Source: Natronococcus amylolyticus DSM 10524
Lineage (GTDB): Archaea; Halobacteriota; Halobacteria; Halobacteriales; Natrialbaceae
Direction: 5' to 3'
DNA length: 36,275 nt
NCBI RefSeq assembly: GCF_000337675.1
Contig: NZ_AOIB01000030.1
Location: forward strand, 34,492-70,766
Positions 6,970-31,036 of the stretch are shown in pieces. Below the pieces are notes generated by a model. The model did no database searches. It had not been told where the DNA came from and worked only from the letters and a program-made list of their open reading frames with translations. The position numbers were made by a program, and so were the translations under genes. Numbering within the stretch: position 1 is the first letter of the stretch; each line of letters starts with the position of its first letter.

Positions 6970-7067
6970 TTCCAGCCCTGAACCGTCCTGCATCCATCTT
7001 CTATATTCAGCAAGTTGTTCTTGCCATATCTCGTGAGATCGATTGTTACTCCGGCACCTACTCCACC

Positions 7068-7148
7068 TGTACAGAACTGATTGGTATCGATAATAAGATT
7101 GCCTGCTTAACCAACACTGAGTACAACAGAGAGGTCTTCGTTGGTTAG
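7068..7148. repeat. Hairpin repeat unit, copy A
   Basis: The unit starts with TGTACA at 7068-7073. The hairpin itself is 7107-7148: left arm TTAACCAAC at 7107-7115 and right arm GTTGGTTA at 7140-7147, with a purine-rich loop containing AGAGAGG. The right arm ends 43 bases from the stop codon of HTH-gene fragment A. The same layout occurs in five other copies (8525, 12925, 15213, 18926, 21851). Confidence 0.85.
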
Positions 7149-7191
7149 TTGACTGTGGTAGAAGATCGGAGATAGAACGATGGTCCAGATG

Positions 7192-7578
7192 CTACGAAGT
7201 TGTGCGAGAAAGTGGCTGTTGCTCGAGCGCTGATCCCATCTGAACGGCCTGATTGTCCTCGGTGAATTCTGTGGCTGTGAGTATGGCGGCTAGTCGCATC
7301 CATGGGCCGACCGTCGGATGCTCAAGTACTCGCGATGGGTTCGGTGGCCAGAACAACGCACTCCCAAGCAGGTCATTGGGGTCGCCGTAGCGATTGGGTG
7401 GAAGAATCGTTCCAAGGAGTGAATCGGCAGCGTCGAGTAGCGTCTGACTCTCCTCGAGGACAGCCGGAACAACAGGATCGTGGCGTTCGGTGGCTGTCTG
7501 GAACGACAACGCCAGTCGATACCCGTTTTTGTCGACGCGAATGAGATCGAGCGCCTTGAGTCAACCGCGGTGGTTCCA
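7192..7578 (-). pseudogene. HTH-gene 3' fragment, copy A
   Basis: Reads LKALDLIRVDKNGYRLALSF from about 7562 and continues to the family C-terminus (LEQQPLSRTTS) at 7192, so the 3' end is intact. Nucleotide similarity to the full copy at 28502-31036 continues to about 7578 within the recognition-helix region and then stops; everything upstream (about 700 residues) is missing. The break lies 14 bases from the 3' end of the TFB fragment. Without a start or DNA-binding helix it is unlikely to be functional. Confidence 0.8.
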
Positions 7579-7592
7579 CTGGCAGAAAGCGA

Positions 7593-8057
7593 CTACTGGA
7601 GATTTAGTACTTCGATTTGCTCCTGATAGCGGTTCCGAATCGTCATTTCGGTCACTTGTGCAACTTCTGCGATCTCGCGTTGTGTTTTCTTTTCATCGCA
7701 GAGGATGCTTGCAGCATAGATTGCAGCGGCGGCAAACCCTGTCGGAGATTTCCCAGAGAGTAACCCCTGCTCTGTGCTAGTATCAATAATTTCTCTGGCT
7801 TTCGACTGAACTGCTTTACTCGAACCCAGCTCAGAGCAAAACCTGGGGACGTACTTCTTTGGATCAGTTGGGTCCACTTCGAGAGAGAGTTCGTGGGCGA
7901 TATAGCGGTAGGTCCGCCCAATTTCTTTTTTCTCGACCCGTGAGATGTCCGTAACCTCCTCTAAGCTGCGTGGAATGTCTCCCTGTCGGCAGGCAGCATA
8001 CAGACAGCTTGTTGCGACCCCTTCAATCGACCGACCGCGGATAAGATCCTCGTTCAA
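7593..8057 (-). pseudogene. Transcription factor B (TFB) C-terminal fragment
   Basis: About 154 residues, starting ALNEDLIRGRSIEGVA and ending EVAQVTEMTIRNRYQEQIEVLNLQ, match the two cyclin-like repeats of archaeal TFB (TFIIB homologue), including the YAACRQ and TGFAAAAIYAA helices. A complete TFB is about 300-330 aa and begins with a zinc ribbon and B-finger; these are absent and an in-frame TGA lies three codons upstream of the TTG at 8057. The 3' end is intact. Haloarchaea carry several TFB paralogues, so this is most simply a truncated paralogue left by rearrangement; a short translated cyclin-fold protein cannot be fully excluded. Confidence 0.8.
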
Positions 8058-8154
8058 TGCCTGTCAATAGACAGCGCTGGCGACTTCACAAACTGACCGT
8101 GGTACAGCCGGTACAGAGGACCTTTGATCGATCTCACTGAGTGCGCTTACTTTC

Positions 8155-8280
8155 TCACGGGGGACCCCGGCCGTAGCCTATGGGTAGGTTTTCCGGCGGC
8201 CCTCTTCCTCTCCCTTGCTTCGTTATCTCCGTTATGCTACCAAATGTGGTCACCTGTGGTGGCTCGTAATCTTTTGCCAT
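8155..8280 (-). CDS. Candidate lasso-type RiPP precursor peptide
   Basis: A 41-aa gene from ATG 8280 to TGA at 8155-8157. The N-terminal part has the lasso leader pattern YxxPx[LV]xxxGxxxxxT: Y5, P8, V10, G14, T20, with G14-S-I-T-E-I-T20 closely resembling the GSVEELT box of lasso RiPP leaders. The C-terminal part (from G23) is Gly/Arg/Pro-rich, with a single acidic residue, E30. If the core starts at G23, E30 is position 8; if it starts at Q22, position 9; both are allowed for the macrolactam ring of lasso peptides. RGPP occurs twice in the core. Codons include ATA, AGA and GGG, unusual beside its neighbours. No lasso cyclase, protease or RRE gene is visible in the window. An upstream in-frame start exists at 8355 but the leader motif begins at Y5 of this form. 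Confidence 0.65.
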   Translation of the reverse strand: MAKDYEPPQVTTFGSITEITKQGRGRGPPENLPIGYGRGPP

Positions 8281-8321
8281 ATAATCACCATCTTCCGTAC
8301 AATGATTGACACTGAATCCAC

Positions 8322-8327
8322 ATATAT
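8322..8327 (-). promoter_or_regulatory. TATA-like box before the precursor peptide
   Basis: ATATAT centred 44 bases upstream of ATG 8280 on the minus strand. With the usual archaeal spacing, transcription would start near 8297 and leave a leader of about 17 bases; a GGTGAT resembling a Shine-Dalgarno lies at 8284-8289 but only three bases before the ATG. Confidence 0.4.
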
Positions 8328-8524
8328 CACTATTCCACGACCTTGTGTAATTCACTTCTCTTATCGAAACTGATTGTAAATATCAAGGAATCGGAGTTTG
8401 CCAAGATTGCGATCGGATCGAACTCGGTACTTCATAGAGATCTTCCTGTATAGTCAAGTGCTCTCTGAATATTATAGTAGCAGATCTCTCCTAAATTGTC
8501 TCCAAACAACCGCGATCAGCTTGG

Positions 8525-8565
8525 TTAACCAACACCGTTACAGTAGAGGGGGTTCCGTTGGTTAC
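8525..8565. repeat. Hairpin repeat unit, copy B
   Basis: Left arm TTAACCAAC at 8525-8533, right arm GTTGGTTA at 8557-8564, loop with AGTAGAGGGGG. The right end lies 43 bases from the stop of HTH fragment B. The outer TGTACA end seen in other copies is not recognisable here; only a weak TAGTAGCAGAT remains near 8476-8486. Confidence 0.8.
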
Positions 8566-8608
8566 CTAGACGTGATTGATAGTCGGAGACAGAACGACGA
8601 ACCAGAAA

Positions 8609-9387
8609 TTACGGCGCTGCGCGAGAAAGTGACTGCTGCTCGAGCGGGGGTCCTATCTGAACGGCCCGATTGTCCTCGACGGATTTTGTCGCTGTGAGTG
8701 TAGCTGCTAGTTGCATCCATGAGCCGACCATCGGATGCTCGAGTAATCGCAATGGGTTCGGTGGCCAGAACAGTACACTTCCAAGCGGATCATCAGGATC
8801 GCTGTAGCGATCTGGCGGGAGAATCGTCTCGAGGAGTCTGTCAGCTACCTCGAGGAGCGTCTGACTCTCCCTGAGGACAGCTGGAACAACGGGGTCGCGT
8901 CGCTCAGTGGTTGTCTGAAACGACAACGCCAGACGATACCCGTTCTCGCCGACGCAGATGAGATCGAGCGCTTCGAGTCGATCGCGATAGTTCCGGATCG
9001 TCCGTGTTGAGACATCCGCTCGATCGGCGAGCTCACGCTGTGAGAGACGGTCTTCTGCTGTGAGAAGCGTCTGAACGATTTGACCAACTGTCGGCGACAG
9101 ATCGGAAAGCAACTGCTCGGGTTCGAGTGTTCCCAGCGCATAGCGGAGTTCGTCTGGCCGAAGTTCTCGGCGTTCGTCTTCGCCGGCGAGTTGCTTCAGT
9201 GCTTGAGCAGCGGCGTACGGTGAGCCAGTGCGTGGAGCAACGAGATAGTCTCTCGAGTCAGCCGCAGGTTCTTGGACTGTGGGACTCGTGTCGCAGCTGC
9301 GGCATGGTCTGTCCGGTTGCCCGTCGATAGAGGTGGACCGCGAATTCGGGAGCGGCCCCAGCGAGTGCTGCTGGCGTCTCGAGCGAT
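8609..9387 (-). pseudogene. HTH-gene 3' fragment, copy B (frameshifted)
   Basis: From TGSPYAAAQALKQLAG through the helix-turn-helix (RLSQRELADRADVSTRTIRN) to the family C-terminus this is in one frame and well preserved. Upstream, the family sequence is in other frames: a four-base loss near 9230 relative to the full copy breaks the LHALAGSPY segment, and further changes scramble the part before it. Nucleotide similarity ends near 9387. The residual frame gives 261 codons but the first 55 or so are out-of-frame, so I treat it as a pseudogene. The intact C-terminal 200 residues, including the HTH, could in principle still be made. Confidence 0.75.
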
Positions 9388-9582
9388 TGCCCATCCTGTA
9401 CAGGCTTTGGTTGAGTTGCTTTGTCAGTTCAATGCAGTCAGAACTCTGTTCTATTCACAATACTCAGAAGGCAGGATAGTCAACATTGGCTAACTAACTA
9501 CGGAGAAGCGATAGACCTTGACCTTCTCCATGCCGGACAAATAGAGTGGTGACAGAATACGAACGATCAACAAATCTCTGTG

Positions 9583-12924: not shown

Positions 12925-13003
12925 TGTACAGAGCAGATTGGCCGATCGCAAGATTTGCTTCTTAACCAACAACGGGTGTACTAGAGGAGGTCTCGTTGGT
13001 TAA
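12925..13003. repeat. Hairpin repeat unit, copy C
   Basis: TGTACA at 12925-12930 followed by GAGCAGATTGG; hairpin 12962-13003 with arms TTAACCAAC (12962-12970) and GTTGGTTAA (12995-13003), loop with CTAGAGGAGG. It ends 43 bases from the stop of HTH fragment C. Confidence 0.88.
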
Positions 13004-13046
13004 CTACATGTAACAGTAGATCGAAGAGAGAACGAGACACAGTTTG

Positions 13047-14374
13047 CTATGGAGTTGTGTGAGAAAGCGATTGCTGCTCGAGTGATGACCCCATCTGAAC
13101 AGCCCAGTTGTCTTCGGTGGATTCTGTGGCCGTGAGTGTGGCGGCTAGTCGCATCCATGAGCCGACCATCGGATGCTCGAGTAGTCGCGATGGATTCGGT
13201 GGCCAGAATAGCGCACTCCCAAGTGGGTCGTCGGGGTCGCCGTAGCGATTGGGTGGGAGAACCGTTTCGAGGAGTCTGTCAGCTACCTCGAGGAGCGTCT
13301 GACTCTCCCTGAGGACAGCTGGAACAACGGGGTCGCGTCGCTCAGTGGTTGTCTGAAACGACAACGCCAGACGATACCCGTTCTCGCCGACGCAGATGAG
13401 ATCGAGTGCTTCGAGTCGGTCGTGATAGTTCCGGATCGTCCGTGTCGAGACATCCGCTCGATCGGCGAGCTCACACTGTGAGAGACGCCTTTCAGCTGTG
13501 AGCAGTGTCTGAACGATTTGACCAACTGTCGGCGGCAGATCGGAAAGCAACTGCTCGGGTTCGAGTGTTCCAAGCGCATAGCGGAGTTCATCCGGTCGAA
13601 GCTCTCGACGTTCGTCTTCGCCGGCGAGTTGTTGCAAGGCTTGAGCAGCGGCATACGGTGAGCCAGCCAGTGCGTGGAGCAACGAAACGAGAGCTCGAGT
13701 CGGTCGGAGGTTATTGGACTGGAGGATTCGCGTCGCAGCTGCGGCATGGGCTGTCCGGCTGCCCGTTGAGAGAGGTGGACCATGAGCTCGGGAGCGGCCT
13801 TAGCGAGCGCTGCTGGCGCTTTGAGCGCTTGCTCGAGTTTGGGACGGAGTCGGTGGATATCGTCTTCAGGACCGTTGGTATCGACTGTTGGCGAGAGAAT
13901 ACTCTGACGCTTCTCTCCTCGTGCCTCGAACAGTGCCGGTAGCAGGCGAACGCACCGTATTTCGACTGAATTGCCGTCGCAATGCCGACCGAGGTTGCGA
14001 GTTCGTTCAGTGAGTTCGTGTCGAGTCCAGCCGGCACCCGAAGTTCGCGAACGACGTCGATCTCGAGAGCATCGAACAGATGGATGATTGAGCCAGCAAG
14101 GCCGTGAATCGACCGCATGATCGAACTCCGGAACCGATTGCGCTCCTCGTACTCGCCGGTCGAGAGTTTTGCTGCGAGATCCTCGAGCTCAGTCCCCCAC
14201 TCGATGAACATCTCTCGGAGTGTTTCCGGATTTTCGAGGGCTTCATCTGAGAGCTCGCCAATACAGTGAGCTTCCCTTAGAATGGCCGGCGGATCCTCCA
14301 GGGGCTCGAGGCGACTGTTAGTTAGAATTCAGTTGAGCAAACGCGGAGAGGCTAACGCTGTCGCGAAACTCACT
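13047..14374 (-). pseudogene. HTH-gene 3' fragment, copy C (longest remnant)
   Basis: The longest degenerate copy, about 440 codons. The part from LHALAGSPYAAAQ (13682) to the C-terminus LSHTTP (13047) is in frame and includes the HTH. Further upstream the FIEWGTELEDLAAKLS to QSKYGAFACYRH section (about 14211-13930) is recognisable in another frame, and ILTNSRLEPLEDPPAIL-like sequence continues to about 14374, where similarity stops inside the segment equivalent to SLATALASP. Frameshifts lie near 13690 and 13925. Exactly at the break an ornithine-cyclodeaminase fragment begins. Confidence 0.8.
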
Positions 14375-14500
14375 CGAGCGGGGCTGGGTCGGCGCACCCT
14401 CACCGCGCTGGTGGTACCCCTCTCGGACGACGTCGACGTACTCGGTCGGCGAGGTGAGGCCGACGACGTCGGTACTGGTGAGAAACAGCGTGTCTGTCAT
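14375..14500 (-). pseudogene. Ornithine cyclodeaminase family N-terminal fragment
   Basis: From ATG 14500 the frame reads MTDTLFLTSTDVVGLTSPTE and then YVDVVREGYHQRGEGAP, matching the first 40 or so residues of haloarchaeal ornithine cyclodeaminase/mu-crystallin/alanine dehydrogenase proteins (about 330 aa when complete). After TQPRSS the sequence passes directly into antisense-frame HTH-gene DNA, and the frame ends at 14318. The N-terminal 42 residues are therefore all that is left of a metabolic gene cut by the junction. Confidence 0.7.
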
Positions 14501-14808: not shown

Positions 14809-15212
14809 GTGTTTCCCATAATTAGCCGATGATGGATATGTTTCTAACGCGTAACTGGGTGAGTGGGTTTTCGTAACTTATGAGTTGGTTACACGGCGAA
14901 GAACTCACGGGGCTGACTTGTCTGTCGGAATCGTTCCGTCCTCAAAATATCGGCTGAATCGGTTGATTGACTCATTCTATCTATCATAGCTGGATTTTAA
15001 GTCGGAAATAGTGAGAAACACTCCACCATCAGAACCATCTCGGTTGTTCATTTCTCGGCTTGGATGAACACGGTGTGTTCGTCCACGGAAAAGTCAGTGT
15101 GGTGACTGAAATGCTACAGAGGGAGGTTACGATCGTGAACGGACGTACACCGCGTAACCGGTCGGCCAACCGACGAACGTGAGCAGCCCCAGTTCGGTAA
15201 TCACGATTCTTC
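14809..15212. other. 404-base stretch without a supported gene
   Basis: No frame here has family features. On the minus strand a 30-codon frame from ATG near 15220 (MYRRIVITELGLLTFVGWPT, then YAVYVRS) looks like one membrane helix and ends in a stop; it might be a remnant but could be chance. Otherwise nothing was recognised. Confidence 0.3.
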
Positions 15213-15293
15213 TGTACATAGCAGATTGGCCCCAATTACAAAATCAGCTACTTAACCAACAGCGGGCACAGTAGAGGGGGTCCCGTTGGTTAA
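15213..15293. repeat. Hairpin repeat unit, copy D
   Basis: TGTACA at 15213-15218 followed by TAGCAGATTGG; hairpin 15252-15293 with arms TTAACCAAC and GTTGGTTAA, extended by GGG/CCC pairing beyond a three-base bulge, loop with AGTAGAGGGGG. The right arm ends 46 bases from the stop of HTH fragment D. Confidence 0.9.
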
Positions 15294-15339
15294 CCATGCC
15301 CGGCAGTAGATCGGAGATAGAACGATGATCCAGATACTA

Positions 15340-16245
15340 CTACGGAGGTATGTGAGCAAGTGATCGCTGCTCGAGCATTGGTCCTATCTGAATGGCCTGG
15401 CTGTCTCTGGTGAGTTCTATCGCTGTGAGTGTGGCGGCTAGTCGCATCCATGGGCCGACCATCGAATGCTCGAGTAATCGCGATGAATTCGGTGGCCAGA
15501 ATAGCGTACTCCCAAGCGGATCATCAGGATCGCCGTAGCGATCGGGTGGAAGAATCGTCCCGAGCAATGCATCGACTGCGTTGAGGAGCGTCTGGCTCTC
15601 CTCGAGGACGGTCGAAATAACAGGGTCGTGGCGTTCGGTGGCCGTCTGGAACGACAACGCCAGGCGATACCCGTTCTTGTCGACACGGATAAGATCGAGC
15701 GCTTCGAGTCGGTCGCGGTAGTTCCTGACCGTCCGTGTCGAGACGTCTGCCCGATCAGCAAGCTCTCGTTGTGAGAGCCGACTCTTAGCGGTGAGCAGGG
15801 TGTGAACGATTCGGCCAACTGTCGGTGGGAGATCGGAGAGTAGCTGCGCAGGCTCGAGTGTTCCCAGCGCATAGCGGAGTTCGTCCGGTCGAAGCTCTCG
15901 GCGGTCGTCTTCGGTAGCGAGTTGCTGCAAGGCTCGAGTAGCGGCGTACGGTGAGCCAGCCAGTGCGTGGAGCAACGAAACGATTTCTCGAGTTAGTCGC
16001 AAGTTCTTCGACTGGAGGATTTGCGTCGCAGCCGTTGCGTAGGTGGCCCGGTCCCCTGTCGAGAGGGAAACGCGGACCGCGAATTCGGGAGCATCCTCAG
16101 CGAGCGCTGCTGGCGTCTCGAGCGAGTGTTTGAATTTCGGACGGGAGTCGGTTGATGTCTTCACCACGAACGACTACGGAACCAATGAGCGTCCCTAGCG
16201 GGTCGTCGGCATCGACGGTCAGCGAAAAAGCAATCTGTCGCTTCT
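15340..16245 (-). pseudogene. HTH-gene 3' fragment, copy D
   Basis: An open frame of 275 codons (GTG-type start at 16167) covers the family from the SLETPAALAEDAPEFAV region through the HTH (RLSQRELADRADVSTRTVRN) to the C-terminus LAHIPP. Just upstream, the EKRQ to LTVDADDPLGTLIGSVVVRG section is in a different frame, and similarity ends near 16245, directly before the carotenoid oxygenase gene. This is the best preserved remnant and a truncated protein with an intact HTH is conceivable, although about 560 N-terminal residues are missing. Confidence 0.75.
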
Positions 16246-16298
16246 CCGGTCGGTGCCGCCTCCCGCGGATTGATCGTCCGTCCATCCGATGTGAGAGT

Positions 16299-17717: not shown

Positions 17718-17814
17718 TACGGGTCCGGTCGAACGAGGACGTTCTGTTTCTCGAGTAATTCGAATCGACGGCGGCGGCTTATTTTCCTCTACCCTAACCC
17801 GCGCTCCGTACAAG

Positions 17815-17990
17815 ATGGAACGACGGGGTCGTGGCGTTCGGTGGTCGTCGGGAACGACAATGCCAGTCGATACTCATTCTCGTCGATACGAATGAAATTG
17901 AGCGCTTCGAGTCGATCGCGGTAGTTCCGGATCGTCCGTGCCGAGACAGCCGCTCAGTCAGCAAGCTCGCGTTGTGATAGACAACTTTCT
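17815..17990 (-). pseudogene. Short HTH-gene fragment without hairpin
   Basis: About 58 codons match the HTH and following segment (SQRELAD, stop, AAVSARTIRNYRDRLEALN, then DENEYRLALSF and TTTERHDPVVP). A TGA replaces the Arg codon after ELAD (near 17955), and both ends are cut. It lies between the carotenoid oxygenase and VapBC. Confidence 0.75.
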
Positions 17991-18054
17991 GCCGAAGCCG
18001 TCTATGTCTGCTAGTTCTATGAGGACTGAATATCTGTTCCATCCACGATCAGAG

Positions 18055-18805: not shown

Positions 18806-18925
18806 GGTCTTATGATACCGGGGGGTAGCGAGCCATGCGAACGCGCTCCTCCCCTCCCTACCGCTCCCACTGGTCGCTCGCGGGTGCTGCGCTTGTGGCG
18901 CTACCGCAGCGGTATCTGTTCCGCC

Positions 18926-19005
18926 TGTACTGAGCACATGGCCCCGATCACAAGATTGTCTGCTTAACCAACAGTGGGTGCTAAAGAGAGGCATATGTTG
19001 GTTAA
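18926..19005. repeat. Hairpin repeat unit, copy E
   Basis: TGTACTGAGCACATGG at 18926 is a slightly diverged outer end; hairpin 18964-19005 with arms TTAACCAAC (18964-18972) and GTTGGTTAA (18997-19005). It ends 43 bases from the stop of HTH fragment E. Confidence 0.87.
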
Positions 19006-19048
19006 CCTCGCCCAGTAGTAGATTGGAGATCGAACGATGATCCAGATG

Positions 19049-19570
19049 CTACGGAGTCGCGCGAGAAAGTGGCTGCTGCTCGAGCGAAGACCCCATCTGA
19101 ACGGCCCGGCTACCTTCGGTGGGTTCTGTCGCTGTGAGTGCAGCCGCTAGGCGCAACCATGAGCCGACCATTGGATGCTCAAGTACTCGCAACGGGTCCG
19201 GTGGCCAGAACAGCACATTCCCGAGCGGATCGTCGGGATCGCCGTAGCGATCTGGTGGGAGAATTGTCTCGAGCAATGCATCGGCCGCGTCGAGGAGCGT
19301 TTGACTTTCCTCGAGGACGGCTGGAGCAACGGGCTCGCGGCGTTCGGTGGTCGTCTGGAACGACAACGTTAGGCGATATCCGTTTTCATCGATACTGATG
19401 AGATCAAGTGCCTCGAGTCGATCACGGTAGTTCCGGACCGTCCGTGTCGAGACGTCCGCTCGCTCAGCAAGCTCTCGTTGTGAGAGCCGACTCTCAGCGG
19501 TGAGAAGTGTTTGAACGATTCGGCCAACTGCTGGTGGGCAGGCGGAGGGCAATTGCTCGGGCTCGAGCGT
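19049..19570 (-). pseudogene. HTH-gene 3' fragment, copy E
   Basis: From TLEPEQLPS through the HTH (RLSQRELAERADVSTRTVRN) to the C-terminus LSRATP in one open frame of about 174 codons. Similarity stops at 19570, right after the CTCGAGCGT that encodes TLE in the family. The 5' two-thirds of the gene are missing; the HTH and C-terminal domain are intact, so a short DNA-binding protein is possible but no start signal was seen. Confidence 0.75.
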
Positions 19571-28501: not shown

Positions 28502-31036
28502 CTAGTCGACTGTACACCAAAGCGCTTGCTGCTCGAGCTGTGGACCCATTTGTACGGTCTGGTTATTTTCATTGACCCCTCTTGCAGTGAGCGCAGCGGC
28601 TAACCGCATCCATGAGCCGACCATTGGATGCTTAAGTACTCGTAACGGATCCGGTGGCCAGAACAGCACATTCCCGAGCGGATCGTCGGGATCGCCGTAG
28701 CGATCTGGTGGGAGAATCGTCTCGAGCAATGCATCGGCTGCATCGAGGAGCGTCTGGTTCTCCTCGAGGAGGGTCGGAACAACAGGGTCGTGACGTTCAG
28801 TAGCCGTCTGAAACGACAGCGCCAGACGGTATCCGTTTTCGTCGACACAGATGAGATCGAGCGCTTCGAGTCGGTCGCGATAGCTCCGGACCGTCCGTGC
28901 CGAGACGTCTGCTCGGTCAGCAAGCTCACGTTGTGAGAGCCGACTCTCAGCGGTGAGAAGAGTGTGAACGATTCGGCCAACTGCTGGTGGGAGATCGGAG
29001 AGTAACTGCTCAGGCTCGAGCGTTCCCAGTGCACAGCGGAGTTCGTCCGGCCGGAGTTCTCGTCTCTCGTCCTCGCCGGCGAGTTGTTGCAGTGCTCGAG
29101 CAGCGGCGTACGGCGAGCCGGTCAACGCGTGGAGCAACGAAACGATCTCTCGAGTCAGTCGCAAGTTCTTGGACTGCAGGATTCGCGTCACAGCCGATGC
29201 GTAAGCCGCCCGGTCGACCGTTGAAAGGGAAACACGGACTGCAAATTCTGGAGCGCCCTCAGCGAGCGCTGCTGGCGTCTCGAGTGATTGCTCGAGTTTC
29301 AGGCGGAGTCGGTGGACGTCTTCTCCGCGAACGACCATGGAGCCAATGAGCGTCCCCAGTGGGTCATCGGCGTCGACGGTTGGCGAGAGTGCGCTTTGGC
29401 GCTTCTCTTCGCGAGCTTCGAACAGCTGGCGGTAGCAGGCGAACGCACCGTATTTCGACTGAATTGCCGTCGCAATGCTGATTGTGGTAGCGAGTTCCTT
29501 CAGCGAGTTCGTGTCGAGTCCGGACGGTACTCTGAGTTCGCGAGTGACGCCAATCTCGAGAGCATCGAAGAGATGGATAATCGACCCGGCAAGACCATGA
29601 GCCAACCGCATGATCGATCCACGGAACCGATTGCGATCCTCGTACTCGCCGGCTGAGAGTTTCGCCGTAAGGTCCTCGAGCTCAGTTCCCCATTCGATGA
29701 AGGCTTCACGAAGCGTTTCGGGATCCTCGAGAGCCTCATCCGAGAGCCCGCCGATACAGCGAGCATCCCGAAGAATCGCCGGCGGATCTTCCAACGACTC
29801 GAGGCGACTATCGGTGAGGACTCGGTTGACCAACCGCGGCGAGGCTAACGCCGTCGCGAGACTCACCACGTACTGCAGGGGCCCACTGGCCCGAACCGCG
29901 ACCACGGTTTCCTCCCGATCGCCGTCGAAGCTCACATACCGAGTGTGATCCGGAGCGTCTGCTTGATCCTCGAACGGCGCTTCGACGAGAGTGATATCGC
30001 CGGCTTCCCCACAGCCAACGGCGCCGGCGTGCCCTGGACGGTCAAGGTAGGCCGTCCGGTAGGGGTTGCTGTCTGTACTGCCGTCATCCCCCTCCCCTCG
30101 TGTGCGCGGGGTTACACGGCACTGTTGGTCGGATGTTCCGGTGTCGCTCACGGCCTCGGTCAGTTCCTGCTGCCGACCGATTTGGGCGTCGAGCGTGGCG
30201 AGTAGCTGTCGGCCAGCCTCGAGCAACTCGACAGTCCGATCGTCGGCGGGGCCGAACTCTGCGATGAGTCCAAGCTCGGTGAGTGAGTTCTGCTCGGAGA
30301 CCAGCAGTTGGGAGATTCGACTGCGGTCGACGTCGTGCATCGCTCGCAGGGCGTGCCTCGAGAGCGTCTGGGCGGGTTCATCCTCAAGTTGTCGGAGGAG
30401 TTCGACCTTGCGGCCGTCTGGGTCCAGTACCTCGAGTGCTCGCTCAACTTGGTCCCCACTTGGATGGTGTGTCTCTCGCCACTCGCTCACGCCGGGCAGT
30501 TCTTCGCGGTGCTCTCGAGCGAGCCAGTGCTGAGTGCGGCCACTCGCGACGACGCGGATATCGAAGCCGGTCGCAAGGACGGCCAGCAGTCGACAGACCG
30601 ACTCGCGTTTTCGTCGTGGGGCGTCTTCGAACGCGCGGTCGATTGTGATTGTGAGCGTCGGTGGCTGGTCGTCGGCAACGTTGGTGGCGAAGAACTCGGC
30701 AGTCGCGAACAGGTCCTCGAGACTCGCATGCCCCTGCCCGAGGTTTGGCACGAGGTCGGCCGCGAGTCGCCAGGCTTCTCGTCGGTTGCCGCGGGCGACC
30801 TCGAGTATTCGTGAGCGCAACCAGTAGGGGATTTGCTGGTCCTCGAGTGCCCCGTAACACTCGGGGACAGTCCGGCCGTCGGCGAACCGACGGACGGCGC
30901 GGATGAATCGATCTCGAATCGACTGCTGGTCGAACAGCTGGGCCCAGAGTTCGGAGACTGGGTCGGTATCGATCTCGAGGCTGGCCGCTGGTGAGAGCGG
31001 CGGCTGTTGTGTGGGTGTGAGTCCCGCGTCGGTCAC
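28502..31036 (-). CDS. 844-aa HTH protein, only full-length family copy
   Basis: GTG start at 31036 preceded by GAGGTGA at 31044-31050 (seven-base spacing), a strong Shine-Dalgarno. Residues of about 125-290 have an ATPase-like rhythm (PTLTITIDRAFEDAP, IRVVASGRTQHWLAR, then helical segments) but no Walker A is seen. A variable Gly/Asp/Ser-rich stretch lies at about 300-350, and a helical middle part at 380-650. Residues 697-740 form a helix-turn-helix (RLSQRELADRADVSARTVRS), followed by a C-terminal helical domain (FWPPDPLRVLKHPMVGSWMR). I do not recognise a named family. It is the third gene of a tight operon. A plasmid- or element-maintenance regulator is my best guess. Eight partial copies of it occur across the window. 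Confidence 0.85.
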   Translation of the reverse strand: MTDAGLTPTQQPPLSPAASLEIDTDPVSELWAQLFDQQSIRDRFIRAVRRFADGRTVPECYGALEDQQIPYWLRSRILEVARGNRREAWRLAADLVPNLGQGHASLEDLFATAEFFATNVADDQPPTLTITIDRAFEDAPRRKRESVCRLLAVLATGFDIRVVASGRTQHWLAREHREELPGVSEWRETHHPSGDQVERALEVLDPDGRKVELLRQLEDEPAQTLSRHALRAMHDVDRSRISQLLVSEQNSLTELGLIAEFGPADDRTVELLEAGRQLLATLDAQIGRQQELTEAVSDTGTSDQQCRVTPRTRGEGDDGSTDSNPYRTAYLDRPGHAGAVGCGEAGDITLVEAPFEDQADAPDHTRYVSFDGDREETVVAVRASGPLQYVVSLATALASPRLVNRVLTDSRLESLEDPPAILRDARCIGGLSDEALEDPETLREAFIEWGTELEDLTAKLSAGEYEDRNRFRGSIMRLAHGLAGSIIHLFDALEIGVTRELRVPSGLDTNSLKELATTISIATAIQSKYGAFACYRQLFEAREEKRQSALSPTVDADDPLGTLIGSMVVRGEDVHRLRLKLEQSLETPAALAEGAPEFAVRVSLSTVDRAAYASAVTRILQSKNLRLTREIVSLLHALTGSPYAAARALQQLAGEDERRELRPDELRCALGTLEPEQLLSDLPPAVGRIVHTLLTAESRLSQRELADRADVSARTVRSYRDRLEALDLICVDENGYRLALSFQTATERHDPVVPTLLEENQTLLDAADALLETILPPDRYGDPDDPLGNVLFWPPDPLRVLKHPMVGSWMRLAAALTARGVNENNQTVQMGPQLEQQALWCTVD

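Follow-up and report, generated by a model that had tools for sequence, protein, structure and literature searches.

The window analysed here, 36,275 nucleotides of Natronococcus amylolyticus DSM 10524, contains a small open reading frame whose product begins like a lasso-peptide precursor. The question raised by this locus is how such a gene came to lie in a haloarchaeal mosaic region and what kind of peptide it would encode. A preceding sequence-only reading had proposed a lasso core closed at E30 and offered three options for the gene, namely machinery elsewhere, a stranded remnant or a variant system.

The precursor gene and its leader

The ORF occupies positions 8155..8280 of the minus strand, with an ATG start and a TGA stop, and its 41-aa product is MAKDYEPPQVTTFGSITEITKQGRGRGPPENLPIGYGRGPP. 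The sequence-only reading had given these coordinates exactly and left the strand unstated; the residues that it listed (Y5, P8, V10, G14, T20, the GSITEIT box, E30 and the repeated RGPP) are all present. The check by leader model that it had suggested returns a narrow pass for NF033521, lasso_leader_L3 (19.7 bits, cut-off 19), and a score below the cut-off for NF033528 (20.9 bits, cut-off 33). Since the NF033521 match has an E value of just 0.0097 in a search across the whole genome, which is weak when taken alone, a separate profile was built from 23 haloarchaeal precursors, with the ORF and its congener siblings left out. This haloarchaeal leader profile gives the ORF 29.1 bits, with E = 5.8e-8 when 2,230 small ORFs are searched. 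In 303 kb of the host genome no other small ORF exceeds 8.1 bits, and shuffled windows, which supplied 57,740 ORFs, peak at 11.2 bits. Judged from its letters, the ORF is a real RiPP precursor gene with a genuine lasso-type leader.

This leader (residues 1-21, 8218..8280, minus strand; YEPPQVTTFGSITEITK) contains DYEPP and FGS, and it combines a YxxPxL-type RRE motif with a threonine, T20, at -2 of a putative leader/core boundary placed by the penultimate-Thr rule (PMC10368454). Residues D4, Y5, E6, P7, P8, T11, T12, F13, G14, E18, T20 and K21 are invariant among four homologues. The region upstream (8281..8387, minus strand) is homologous to the sequence upstream of the congener precursors, and the TATA-like box attributed to the gene is indeed there, as an ATATATG some 45 bp upstream of the ORF that is kept in the congener copies. 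The AT-leaning codons also attributed to it amount to a mild tendency only, with a GC of 56% and a GC3 of 55% against a window average of 54.7%.

Partner genes in the host and in a congener

The host assembly is 99.8% complete in 44 contigs, and the window ends at a contig end. As had been noticed for the window, it contains no cyclase, protease or RRE gene, and the same applies to the remainder of its 70.8-kb contig. A search of the whole assembly turned up neither a B2 nor a lasso-type cyclase, and no convincing match to an RRE; the best cyclase match is a generic AsnB-like protein at 88 bits, and the kinase and the NTP-transferase were looked for by DNA similarity to the congener cluster only. 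The gene is therefore an orphan in its genome, as had been claimed, and the option of machinery elsewhere is not supported in an assembly of this completeness.

Several candidates were tried and rejected. Host AsnB-like genes (C5, C14, C33, C26 and others), considered as hidden lasso cyclases, have low profile scores and no flanking lasso partners. An ABC exporter gene on C36, whose DNA matches that of the cluster exporter at 69%, was considered as a second cluster and belongs to a polysaccharide locus with no RRE, B2 or precursor; this lasso-cluster exporter homologue (L133/L134, G000:C36:64524-66329) has no RiPP genes around it. On C13, a weak RRE match of 19 bits, limited to the C-terminal half and lying in a 248-aa frame, was judged to be chance. 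Remnants of B2 or cyclase at 8390-8700, upstream of the ORF, gave nothing above noise, searches of plasmid, phage and IMG/VR sequences yielded no real relative of the precursor, and further matches from one candidate search were mostly alternative reading frames of ordinary genes.

When 125 genomes of the family were searched at the DNA level, a single relative covered the ORF, Natronococcus sp. A-GB7 (G410, contig NZ_JARUKV010000013.1), which carries three tandem sibling precursors: p1 (MGDDYEPPRLTTFGSITEVTKQGKCNGKGSPSELSVGY), p2 (MRDDYEPPRLTTFGSVTEITKRGKGKGRGPPDELPIGYGRGPP) and p3, whose core is poly-Gly. Homology to the three copies covers window 8368-8144, promoter region included, with 73% DNA identity between 8368-8211 and G410:C5:10642-10801, and the alignment reaches ~8387. 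The window peptide is 78% identical to p2 in amino acids; 16 synonymous changes on 31 sites and 12 nonsynonymous changes on 92 give a dS of 0.87 and a dN of 0.14, that is, a dN/dS of ~0.17. The siblings are accompanied by an RRE (PqqD, 60 bits), a B2 leader peptidase (NF033537, 81.7 bits, cut-off 33), an HprK-like kinase, an NTP_transf_5 protein (174 bits) and an ABC exporter. The proposed search for maturation genes came out differently for the host, which yielded none, and for related genomes, in which RRE (B1) and B2 are found, adjoining the siblings in the congener. No lasso cyclase lies in the 20 kb around these siblings and no convincing one occurs genome-wide in G410, where AsnB-like matches reach 46-87 bits on a haloarchaeal cyclase profile; haloarchaeal lasso cyclases score 765-1065 bits on a comparable profile, and two of them pass the curated NF033535 cut-off. 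Among the genes listed for these 20 kb of the congener, B2 is seen and no SipW-like signal peptidase.

The G410 cluster may itself be decaying, because its B2 is without the usual C-terminal GDxxDL stretch and, within the cluster, gene fragments are duplicated and one precursor is shortened; the RRE, kinase and p2 reading frames are intact. At L114:10515-12422 of this genome, B2-precursor-kinase fragments are repeated in tandem and the core of the third precursor is now a glycine run.

A cyclase-less layout and its core peptides

Among 392 genomes of the order, 28 are B2-positive, and ~20 kb around each B2 was read. A lasso cyclase is nearby in 15 of the 28 (in G003 ~20 kb away), and 13 have RRE, B2, kinase and NTP-transferase (NT) with no cyclase: 11 species of one genus (g43), G043, and G030, whose contig ends 2.9 kb from its B2. 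Together with G410, the cyclase-less loci number 14, in four genera and three families; absence of the cyclase was assessed genome-wide for the window's genome and G410 and within ~20 kb for the others. Their shared layout is ABC(-), then RRE-B2-precursor-kinase-NT. The 32-aa precursor of the 11 same-genus species, MKEYETPSVETYGTVEEKTNWWDHDDGYGKWS, is near-invariant, and active-site residues (B2 Cys/His, kinase P-loop/DD) are kept in most cyclase-less loci.

Thirteen cyclase-less loci form a single clade in the exporter tree, with a local support of 1.0, and all 14 do so in the tree of NT proteins (support 0.999). Agreement is partial in the kinase tree, where the clade takes in five sequences from other locus types, and in the RRE tree cyclase-less and cyclase-bearing loci are not set apart. 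The B2 tree also agrees in part: the Natronococcus B2 groups with cyclase-bearing G137 and G003 and not with the other cyclase-less loci, so the cyclase of the Natronococcus cluster may have been lost separately.

Other arrangements were seen elsewhere. Haloarchaeal clusters L055 and L087 encode a pair of differing lasso cyclases together with two or three kinases, and in them QNK...D8-type precursors lie next to Gly/Asn-rich ones of the GxHFSxVD8 form. At L096:9987-11126, an HprK-like kinase is the only companion of a precursor that has a lasso leader and a repetitive core rich in Asp and Trp (DDDGWDWGWGDDDH...); a full lasso cluster lies ~33 kb away in the same genome (G199). The sole precursor of cyclase-bearing L054 (9865-10933) has a (GR)n core with a single acidic residue at 21, outside the ring range.

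By the -2 Thr rule, the predicted core of the window peptide (QGRGRGPPENLPIGYGRGPP, Q22-P41, 8158..8217, minus strand) would start with Gln and have its Glu at core position 9. The acidic residues of the sibling cores stand at 11/12 in p2 and at 12 in p1, and p3 has none. Conservation had been expected of both T20 and E30; T20 is invariant across the four homologues, whereas the position of E30 is not kept, and no Asp/Glu is conserved at core positions 7-9. The acidic residue of cyclase-bearing haloarchaeal precursors is mostly at core position 8, and no ring position is kept in the cyclase-less set. These results go against E30 as a ring acceptor in a dehydrated lasso core. Nor is a Gly/Arg/Pro-rich core as unusual for archaea as had been supposed, since Gly/Arg-rich cores recur in G137, G365 and G174.

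A tyrosine is found in every core of the cyclase-less set, and it is the sole core hydroxyl side chain in the window peptide (Tyr36, codon 8173-8175, minus strand), p2, p3, two genus-g43 variants and G030. The target of paeninodin kinases, a Ser conserved at the C terminus (PMC9266682), is not conserved among the cyclase-less relatives, and BsfK accepted Tyr at its site (PMC10368454). For these reasons, we propose that the tyrosine is most likely the modified residue of the core. A conserved GYG motif did not hold up as a marker of the class: G030 has HHY instead and p1 only part of the motif, so that only the tyrosine is claimed as a common feature.

Origin of the gene and relation to known systems

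The fragment homologous to the congener cluster, ~250 bp with promoter and ORF, ends at ~8144 against a broken TFB gene. The breakpoint at which RiPP-cluster homology stops and the TFB remnant starts lies at 8144..8157, around CCCCCGTGAGA; the TFB (TFIIB) fragment (7593..8153, minus strand; PF00382, 143 bits) is missing its 5' part and has an in-frame TGA at 8064-8066. Precursor and TFB fragment share a 0.9-kb segment edged by two 5'-truncated copies of the gene for an 844-aa HTH protein (8515..9390 and 7067..7629, both minus strand), of which a full copy lies at 28502-31036. The array of this gene further occupies 860-1320, 12925-14415, 15212-16250, 17804-17995 and 18920-19570, and comprises at least seven truncated copies on one strand that are ~77-85% alike. 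Most copies have differing start points, reach the 3' end and share ~140 bp past it; the cargo between copies is unrelated (TFB fragment and RiPP precursor, histidine kinase, RPE65-like oxygenase, AbrB/PIN pair). Relatives of the HTH gene are found in 62 plasmid records, some of which match at 5-8 places. The array is best read as a plasmid-type mosaic gathering fragments, in which the precursor gene would have been stranded.

We propose, with a probability of about 0.68, that the ORF is a precursor from a haloarchaeal cyclase-less, B2-retaining lasso-leader RiPP system, stranded in its own genome, because this genome is without maturation enzymes and the clusters of relatives have leader-cutting machinery without a ring-closing enzyme. 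The options of a stranded remnant and of a variant system are thus both supported. In such a system, the YxxPxV/L leader would be the docking site of the RRE, modification of the core, most likely at its tyrosine, would fall to the kinase and NTP-transferase, B2 would cut one residue past the conserved Thr, and a linear peptide would leave the cell through the ABC protein. The promoter and ORF would then have been joined to the broken TFB gene inside the mosaic. Because its genome has no partner enzymes, the window gene is probably transcribed at most, not matured, and would have no function in this host. It can be suggested more tentatively, with the balance somewhat against it, that haloarchaea hold an established class with lasso leaders, RRE and B2 and no cyclase, making short linear peptides whose conserved Tyr (usually in GYG) would be the kinase/NTP-transferase site, and of which the window gene would be a stranded member.

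The Natronococcus cluster could instead be an ordinary lasso cluster in decay, the cyclase having been deleted between B2 and precursor together with the end of B2, and the window ORF a fragment of that decaying system. This is unlikely, though it deserves serious consideration: cyclase-bearing clusters are often ordered RRE-B2-cyclase-precursor (L094), the G410 B2 is cut short just where the cyclase would begin and groups with that of G137 and G003, and kinase and B2 fragments and uneven precursors accompany it. However, cyclase-less clusters conserved in three other genera have the same layout, the exporter and NT trees place G410 with cyclase-less loci, and intact RRE, kinase and p2 frames with a dN/dS well below 1 are at odds with decay. 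We consider it rather improbable that the ORF is a live orphan, processed in trans by an RRE and B2 on DNA missing from the assembly. Intact ORF, promoter and native stop, the low dN/dS against p2 and a 44-contig draft in which the window ends at a contig end would suit this idea; against it, the assembly is nearly complete with no B2 or RRE found, and the next-best relic is the C36 exporter in its polysaccharide locus without partner genes.

The canonical lasso precursor first proposed, with a nine-residue ring closed by E30, has very little probability left. A single acidic residue at core position 9 speaks for it; it is not supported because E30 is off the ring position in siblings, the p3 core has no acidic residue and the cyclase-less layout, that of the sibling cluster included, recurs, and a core beginning with Gln also counts against it. 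That a chance ORF imitates the leader is scarcely conceivable: the modest per-genome E value of the NCBI model would allow it, yet the distance between 29.1 bits and the null maximum opposes it and the full-length congener siblings with matching enzymes refute it.

Archaeal lassopeptide clusters have been given only as predictions (PMC12144867), and the archaeal RiPPs made and studied so far are only lanthipeptides and a few others. We found no description of a cyclase-less, B2-retaining haloarchaeal class in the open-licence literature. Such a class would offer a testable case for the role of the kinase and NTP-transferase without a ring, and a match to a lasso-leader model alone does not imply a lasso peptide.

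The clusters of the relatives resemble paeninodin-type lasso clusters (A, C, B1, B2, K, N, ABC) in their YxxPxV/L leader with Thr at -2, discrete PqqD-like RRE (B1), cysteine leader peptidase B2, HprK-like kinase, NTP_transf_5 and ABC exporter. Unlike these, they have no cyclase, no conserved ring acceptor and no conserved C-terminal Ser, the usual kinase target, and the window retains the precursor only. Cyclase-bearing haloarchaeal clusters (L094, Halopiger xanaduensis SH-6 plasmid NC_015658) have the same leader family and shared enzymes, but differ in their NF033535-type cyclases and in the placing of the core acidic residue. The linear polyphosphorylated peptides (LPPs) of Bacillota (PMC13381572, 2026) are made by RRE, HprK-like kinase, NTP transferase and ABC exporter with no cyclase, a gene set present in the congener's cluster and not in the window; an MsbA-like exporter, a lasso-like YxxP leader and 1-3 precursors per cluster are likewise common to LPP and haloarchaeal clusters. 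The LPP leader YxxPxVLxHQxIxFETxxS is not matched by that of the window, haloarchaeal leaders having Thr(-2), and LPP leaders are cut by a SipW-like signal peptidase (PMC13381572), whereas haloarchaeal clusters keep B2. If the proposed class is real, lasso leader machinery would serve linear peptides in archaea too, in parallel to, yet distinct from, the bacterial LPPs.
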